A DNA stretch of 64,000 bases from a virus. The notes beneath the pieces were generated by a model that saw only the letters and a list, made by a program, of their open reading frames with translations, did no database searches and was not told where the DNA came from. The translations under genes and the position numbers were made by a program. Below, in pieces: positions 50,092 through 50,892 of the stretch; within the stretch, counting starts at the first letter, position 1; every line of letters begins with the position of its first letter. The stretch is taken from the IMG/VR virus record IMGVR_UViG_3300042691_021282, positions 31,481-95,480 of that record; one strand, 5' to 3'.

Positions 50092-50099
50092 TATTTATT
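50092..50099 (-). promoter_or_regulatory. late-type promoter (AATAAATA)
   Basis: One base off the late consensus on the minus strand, 16 bases before the GNAT ATG at 50075. It lies at the 3' end of the HNH-like gene. Confidence 0.5.
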
Positions 50100-50892
50100 T
50101 CTTTGCTTCTTTTTCTTTTCTTAGTTTTGCTTTATGTGCTGCCGCAAGTAATCCTTTGTGTCCAACGTGTGCAATATCTTTAGTCTTTCCTTCAAGTTCA
50201 TGTGCTCCACCTGCTCTATGGGCAATTCCTCTTCTTCTTCTACTTTCTGGAGTTCTTTCTGTAGTTGCTCCCATTACATTTTTATGATGATGCCCGTGAT
50301 ATATTCCACTTGCAGCATCTCTTTTCTTTCTTGCTTCCCACTCAGCATCACTCATAGATGCTTTAATCTTTGCAGAGTAATGTGTTGGAGTGATGTGATG
50401 TGCTTCTAATCCTGCTCTTTGTAATTTTTTCTTTTTTACATCTGCTGCCTTTCTTTCTTCTGGAGAACTTAAACTTGCAATTCTCTCTGCTCTTGATTTT
50501 CTTTCTTGAGCACCACCTGATTTTGGTTTTAATCTCCACTTTGGTTTTTCAGTACTACCAGCATTATTTGCATACATTCCTTTAGGAATTCCACCGTGAT
50601 GTTTTTCTAATTCTGCACGACTTGAAAATGATGGTTTTTTTGCTTCAATTAAAGATGCTTCTTCTACAAATTCTCTAAAAGTCTTATTTCTTGCAGAATG
50701 AGAAACTCTTTGTAAATCTAAATCCTTTCTTTTTTTACGAGGGTCCATCAATCTCTGCATATTTGCAACTCCAGGTGCTTCTACTTTACCTGATGAAACT
50801 AGTGATTGTGGTGATTGTGCTGCATTTGCTGCAAATGATAATGCTAGAACAGCATTTGCAGCAGCATCTCTCTTTCTTCCCTCATCTAGCAT
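50095..50892 (-). CDS. putative packaged HNH-like nuclease with internal targeting tag (265 aa)
   Basis: Residues 69-80 (NKTFREFVEEAS) match the targeting tag of the other genes in this operon, but 68 residues into the ORF and with Asn for the initiator Met. Residues 163-169 (EAHHITP) and 200-205 (GHHHKN) resemble the HH and N/H blocks of HNH and colicin-type nucleases, and a later HRAGGAHELEG (225-235) adds a third His cluster. The N-terminal 68 residues may be removed with the tag. A basic Arg/Lys-rich linker links the parts. The nuclease call is motif-level only. Confidence 0.55.
   Translation of the reverse strand: MLDEGRKRDAAANAVLALSFAANAAQSPQSLVSSGKVEAPGVANMQRLMDPRKKRKDLDLQRVSHSARNKTFREFVEEASLIEAKKPSFSSRAELEKHHGGIPKGMYANNAGSTEKPKWRLKPKSGGAQERKSRAERIASLSSPEERKAADVKKKKLQRAGLEAHHITPTHYSAKIKASMSDAEWEARKKRDAASGIYHGHHHKNVMGATTERTPESRRRRGIAHRAGGAHELEGKTKDIAHVGHKGLLAAAHKAKLRKEKEAKK

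Follow-up and report, generated by a model that had tools for sequence, protein, structure and literature searches.

A probable head-packaged polyprotein in a freshwater T4-like cyanophage: a conserved N-terminal module, a capsid-targeting tag, and an HNH-like payload

Capsid-targeting tags, gp21 processing, and injected phage proteins are already known. The internal proteins of phage T4 are a recognized route for injecting anti-defence proteins, and those studied are single units. All three (IPI, IPII, and IPIII) inhibit restriction enzymes, an anti-defence role, and have the leader alone in common (PMC12373910). Within the T4 targeting sequence, positions 4 and 7 direct packaging and positions 8 and 10 allow processing, and the gp21 protease cuts after L/I-x-E (PMC9026906). 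Staphylococcal nuclease fused to this sequence is packaged in T4, freed by cutting, and switchable by metal (PMC9026906). The Synechococcus phage S-SRM01 has two basic proteins, gp167 and gp168, with the leaders MKTFQEF/MKTFQQF. In the giant phages phiKZ and SPN3US (gp53/gp54), head and ejection proteins have a long N-terminal part with several cleavage motifs, which a protease like T4 gp21 is expected to take off (PMC10052503). Polyvalent phage proteins are multi-domain and are thought to be injected with phage DNA (PMC5512222).

Here, we describe a gene that combines features of these systems. It lies in a window of 64,000 nucleotides, the whole stretch of DNA analysed, from a freshwater T4-like cyanophage (IMG/VR record IMGVR_UViG_3300042691_021282). 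The 95-kb record containing the window also has a gp23 gene and a gp21-type prohead protease gene (PF03420, E 5.7e-37; G000:14757-15215). On balance, the gene probably encodes a head-packaged polyprotein, consisting of an N-terminal module (N-module), a tag, and an HNH-like payload, that is cut by gp21 and injected; we infer its packaging, cutting, injection, catalysis, and target from sequence. The gene, its neighbours, and its N-terminal features are as follows:

50095..50892, minus strand: whole gene, predicted polyprotein of N-module, tag, and HNH-like payload (ORF, translation, full-length relatives)
50918..50924, minus strand: ATAAATA box resembling a T4 late promoter, 32 nt ahead of the ATG (sequence; seen in 39/42 module loci)
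50686..50892, minus strand: N-module, residues 1-69 (42 distinct proteins, alignment, dN/dS 0.35, one per record in 11)
50881..50889, minus strand: putative prohead-protease site 1, L2-D3-E4 (M(L/I)xE in 42/42 module proteins, middle residue variable)
50656..50685, minus strand: capsid-targeting tag KTFREFVEEA, residues 70-79, putative cut after E78 (matches T4 internal-protein leaders; tag in 42/42 module proteins)
50644..50652, minus strand: putative prohead-protease site 3, L81-I82-E83 ((L/I)xE at most 12 aa from the tag in 35/42, 2.6 expected)
49695..50075, minus strand: array gene 2, MKTFRKFLEEA, weak GNAT similarity
49045..49698, minus strand: array gene 3, MKTFQEFVLE (similar payload behind the module in L027)
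48285..49034, minus strand: array gene 4, MKTFKEFILE, initiating at the tag Met
47983..48285, minus strand: array gene 5, MKTFQQFILEA

The 265-aa ORF starts with ATG and runs from 50892 to 50095 on the minus strand. It opens a series of five genes on that strand, every one of which carries KTFxxF(V/I/L)xE. The first-pass annotation had described a tag repeated from the neighbours at residues 69-80 of this protein, without a start codon. Both points are borne out: the four downstream genes begin MKTF, and the tag region NKTFREFVEEAS occupies residues 69-80, where the codons read AAT AAG ACT TTT and ATG, GTG, and TTG are absent. Across all six frames, the window contains KTFxxF[VIL]xE five times, always within the five-gene array. 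The chance level is a mean of 0.01 per sequence (100 dinucleotide-Markov sequences), and the motif was found in 0/20,000 shuffles of the 265-aa protein. A chance origin of the tag was rejected on these counts.

The leaders of T4 are MKTYQEFIAEA (IPII and IPIII) and MKTFKEF (IPI). The tag of the 265-aa protein has F, F, V, and E at T4 positions 4, 7, 8, and 10, and the aromatic residues at positions 4 and 7 of KTFREF agree with those of both T4 leaders. The comparison supports reading the mid-protein tag as a T4 internal-protein capsid-targeting sequence. T4-type internal proteins carry the tag at the extreme N-terminus, whereas here it lies at residues 70-79. Homologous payloads elsewhere nevertheless begin at the tag, and we thus regard the protein as a variant of the T4 internal proteins. 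It resembles them in its leader, its protease type, a basic payload of a kind that has the leader alone in common with others, and the confinement of (L/I)xE to the cut site. It differs in that a conserved 69-aa module with its own site precedes the tag, and in its HNH-like payload. To our knowledge, no T4 internal protein is a nuclease. The S-SRM01 proteins likewise have no N-module ahead of the tag; gp167 is similar to array gene 3 and contains no (L/I)xE at all, and a search of the S-SRM01 record found nothing matching the HNH-like payload. In that phage, which is cultured and from freshwater, gp167 and gp168 are adjacent (L127:2816-4659) and have in common an Ala/Arg-rich stretch of ~50 aa behind the tag.

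The module formed by residues 1-69 is found in 42 distinct proteins and in each of them precedes the tag, with a 55-residue insert between the two in L002. Eleven long records contain exactly one module each, and it usually belongs to the gene that opens the array (exceptions: L032 and L068). An ATAAATA-type box stands upstream of the module gene in 39/42 loci, mostly at -30, against a background of 3.5%. Module dN/dS has a median of 0.35 and is below 1 in all 343 pairs; by these sequence comparisons, the module is under purifying selection. It is extremely unlikely that the true start is internal and the residues upstream are untranslated. Several relatives (L004, L022, and L006) do keep a possible in-frame start codon, ATG or TTG, at the tag, but the window has AAT at that position, the upstream residues evolve under constraint, M(L/I)xE is kept in 42/42, and the late-promoter-like box stands at a fixed distance from the module ATG. 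A mis-annotated start was rejected on these grounds.

The payloads behind the module fall into three HNH-like classes (HHITP, HHxTE, and HHMTP), a MRKEDKV class, and others that are unrelated. In 43 pairs, module DNA identity is at least 80% while payload identity is below 40%. When L021 is compared with L022, L024, and L025, identity ends 42 nt into the tag region, just past the codons for LVE, the second motif behind the module. Thus, payloads appear from these alignments to have been exchanged at the tag. L030 keeps the module with almost no payload. A PDB profile search using the module gave no match. With a conserved, single-copy module common to unrelated payloads, the protein resembles a polyprotein more than a nuclease behind an incidental leader.

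Two observations concern related leaders. A 476-aa protein whose two ends are different (L043:3140-4570) has an internal stretch that resembles the N-module but lacks the first 14 residues. A second recurrent leader, M(D/N/E)xx(D/E)(L/F/I)xxLQE(A/S)Y, is found on unrelated proteins (window 44365-45069, minus strand; L099, L033, L051, and others). Since it contains LQE directly before A, this sequence may be a further head-targeting leader cut by gp21.

The placement of protease motifs is consistent with a polyprotein. In the 265-aa protein, (L/I/V)xE occurs only at 2-4, 76-78 (VEE), and 81-83 (LIE). All 42 module proteins begin M(L/I)xE(G/A), with x variable, and in all 42 the tag carries (V/L/I/M)xE. 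The tag site of the 265-aa protein is VxE, whereas T4 sites are L/I-x-E. The first-pass annotation had 77 residues removed by a cut at VEE; the number is corrected to 78, as (L/I/V)xE cleavage would follow E78, and a further site lies at 81-83. Two relatives with more than one payload extend the pattern. L027 combines the module with a predicted nuclease and a payload akin to array gene 3, and its sites ((L/I)xE at 2, 87, 283, and 290, and the tag VEE at 80) coincide with the domain borders. In L063, LIE marks the domain border within the second ORF.

The motif is also avoided elsewhere. The mature parts of 45 tagged proteins, clustered at 70% identity, contain 16 (L/I)xE against 42.2 expected, and the lowest of 200 shuffles had 28. 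The controls (L/I)xD, (L/I)E, and Ex(L/I) show no depletion in the mature parts, and (L/I)xE is enriched in 212 untagged control ORFs. This less redundant test with controls supersedes an earlier window-based tally of payload (L/I)xE (2/548). T4 internal proteins have the same avoidance pattern, with little power from three proteins. In gp22, a scaffold expected to be digested, there are 21 motifs versus 10.7 expected. The motif counts come from sequences of common ancestry and are not fully independent. Taken together, placement and avoidance match the pattern that a protease-separated polyprotein would be predicted to leave in sequence.

The N-module might instead be a long removable propeptide of the phiKZ and SPN3US type, which aids entry into the core, is then discarded, and has no function itself. 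We consider this a serious though somewhat doubtful possibility. The head proteins of giant phages carry propeptides of 111-254 residues, which are cut at several places and for the most part do not remain in the head (PMC10052503), and a cut at the tag would take off residues 1-78. Those propeptides are cut in pieces, whereas the interior of the N-module lacks (L/I)xE, save the tag's own LKE in five proteins. Furthermore, the module has its own site at 2-4, stands once per genome before unrelated payloads, and is retained in L030 with hardly any payload. That the module may simply be discarded nevertheless counts against a polyprotein.

The payload and its motifs are:

50098..50643, minus strand: payload, residues 84-265, basic HNH-like domain (33-sequence alignment; AF2 pLDDT 80; sub-threshold HNH_2 in 8/33)
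50386..50400, minus strand: HHITP, residues 165-169, predicted to supply a metal ligand and the general base (HHxT constant across 33 sequences)
50278..50301, minus strand: YHGHHHKN, residues 198-205, including the HNH-motif Asn N205 (Y198, H199, G200, and N205 invariant; H201 and H202 vary)
50200..50220, minus strand: HRAGGAH, residues 225-231, predicted metal ligands (H225 never varies and has a second His behind it, as H-x3-H in several relatives)

Translation places HHITP at 165-169 and GHHHKN at 200-205, as the first-pass annotation had it. Among 33 sequences, down to 25% identity, the residues H165, H166, T168, S173, Y198, H199, G200, N205, and H225 are invariant. The proposal of a nuclease had turned on the constancy of its His residues, which holds for H165, H166, H199, and H225 but not for H201 and H202 of GHHHKN. 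Several relatives end in motifs of H-x3-H type (HHGKFH, HHQTIH, and HTAAH), an ending found in colicin-type HNH nucleases. In the AF2 domain model built from the 33 sequences (pLDDT 80), AHHI forms part of a strand, there are helices, another strand follows immediately on N205, and the helix behind H225 is modelled with low confidence. A model of the whole protein (12 sequences) was poor (pLDDT 63), and its PDB matches were meaningless.

Database comparisons gave weaker signals. Pfam HNH_2 covers the stretch from HH to N and is hit by 8/33 sequences, with a best E of 0.02 that is under the curated cut-off. Scans of the protein and of relatives of the HNH-like domain against Pfam, PHROGs, NCBIfam, and PADLOC returned nothing above a curated cut-off or convincing. 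Foldseek with the domain model matched no solved structure and found two weak viral models, one annotated as HNH at E 0.13; hhalign against the second, the KBS-P-1A HNH protein, gave nothing. The beta-beta-alpha-metal fold suggested earlier thus finds partial support, in the motif and the predicted strand and helix order, and none in Pfam, where hits stay below threshold, or in solved structures. In its HHxxP, an Asn opening a strand, the paired His that follows (often H-x3-H), and its predicted strand and helix order, the payload resembles HNH or His-Me finger nucleases (Pfam HNH_2, AHH; colicin type). It differs in having ~32 extra residues and an invariant YHG ahead of the Asn, and in lacking an above-cut-off family match. 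With fairly high confidence, based on conserved residues and the model, we predict that the payload is an HNH-type nuclease.

The payload could also be packaged without being an acting nuclease, as a basic DNA-binding or inhibitor protein comparable to T4 IP1-IP3, which block GmrSD. The payload is very basic (net +24), the fold matches are weak, and all three T4 internal proteins, which share nothing but a leader, are restriction inhibitors (PMC12373910). Such a role is unlikely, given that HH, N, and H stay invariant amid varying surroundings, as expected of a catalytic site, and that three HNH-like classes recur.

Relatives of the whole protein were found on 17 viral contigs, and searches with the domain and the module raised the total to dozens. 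The first-pass annotation had raised the possibility of relatives that start at the tag, and these exist: homologues of the HNH-like domain begin directly at MKTF in L015/L081, L017/L048, L056, L057, and L090, which argues that the tag junction is real. Most homologues lie behind the module, and in L027, L063, L094, and L099 the domain is fused to another payload. On a tree of 33 domain sequences, these contexts (tag-start, module, and fusion) require at least nine changes. In L094:1463-2758 and L099:3224-4507, a KTFGEF(I/M)YE tag and the HNH-like domain both come after a different N-terminal payload of ~200 aa, at about residue 200, which gives a further case of a tag in mid-protein.

This change of position among relatives would also suit an ordinary mobile HNH homing endonuclease fused to the tag by happenstance, and free-standing nuclease-associated genes are common in this phage (e.g., NUMOD3 at 51423-52259). 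We regard this as very unlikely. The late-promoter-like box, the tag, the array position, and the placement and avoidance of protease motifs are typical of internal proteins, and domain scans found no NUMOD-type DNA-binding motif in the protein. A homing endonuclease was rejected on these features.

A tblastn search with four architectures against 50,697 phage records gave no match, and no relative turned up in the bacterial and archaeal genomes scanned. Neither the phage records nor the literature searched, a coverage that leaves out most subscription journals, yielded the module, its use once per genome, polyprotein joins marked by protease motifs, or HNH-like payloads. Polyvalent proteins also join enzymes in one chain, whereas here the joins carry protease motifs and the chain has a T4 tag.

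Under the polyprotein reading, the cassette would be expressed late in infection from the late-promoter-like box at the head of the internal-protein array. During head assembly, the tag would draw the polyprotein into the prohead core, where a gp21-type protease would cut after E4, E78, and E83. These cuts would release a basic peptide of ~74 residues and a basic 20-kDa HNH-type nuclease, both of which would stay with the DNA and be injected with it. In the cell, the nuclease would most likely attack host or competing DNA, or a host factor. A packaged nuclease would, however, endanger the phage's own DNA unless it were inactive or specific, which also speaks against a polyprotein and raises the question of how a phage packs a nuclease alongside its own DNA.

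More generally, the internal-protein array of freshwater T4-like cyanophages might be headed by a single-copy cassette (late promoter, 69-residue module, and capsid tag) through which interchangeable effectors are loaded as polyproteins and then separated by the head protease. The product would be a common internal peptide and one or two injected effectors, often HNH nucleases. We offer this broader model tentatively, at slightly less than an even chance. The module family would represent a polyprotein form of internal protein in which the leader is conserved, the protease borders can be read from sequence, and the payloads, three HNH-like classes among them, can be exchanged. The tag, paired cleavage motifs, and motif avoidance together provide a sequence-only test for head-packaged cyanophage proteins, by which candidate injected effectors of ecologically important phages can be listed.

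Other genes in the window deserve mention. A D12-class/Dam-type adenine methylase (PF02086; 46055-46909, minus strand) is a lead only for how the phage's own DNA might be spared. It shares 4 nt with an adjoining 193-aa ORF whose VRIEAK motif is reminiscent of PD-(D/E)xK nucleases; the pair spans 46055-47487 (minus strand), just downstream of the array, and judging by these motifs may be a phage restriction-modification pair. At 53245-53544 (minus strand) is a plant-type 2Fe-2S ferredoxin (PF00111), which fits a cyanobacterial host. Finally, a single ORF of 4142 aa (8707-21135, minus strand) beside a gp8-like gene (PF09215) is predicted to encode a very large structural protein.
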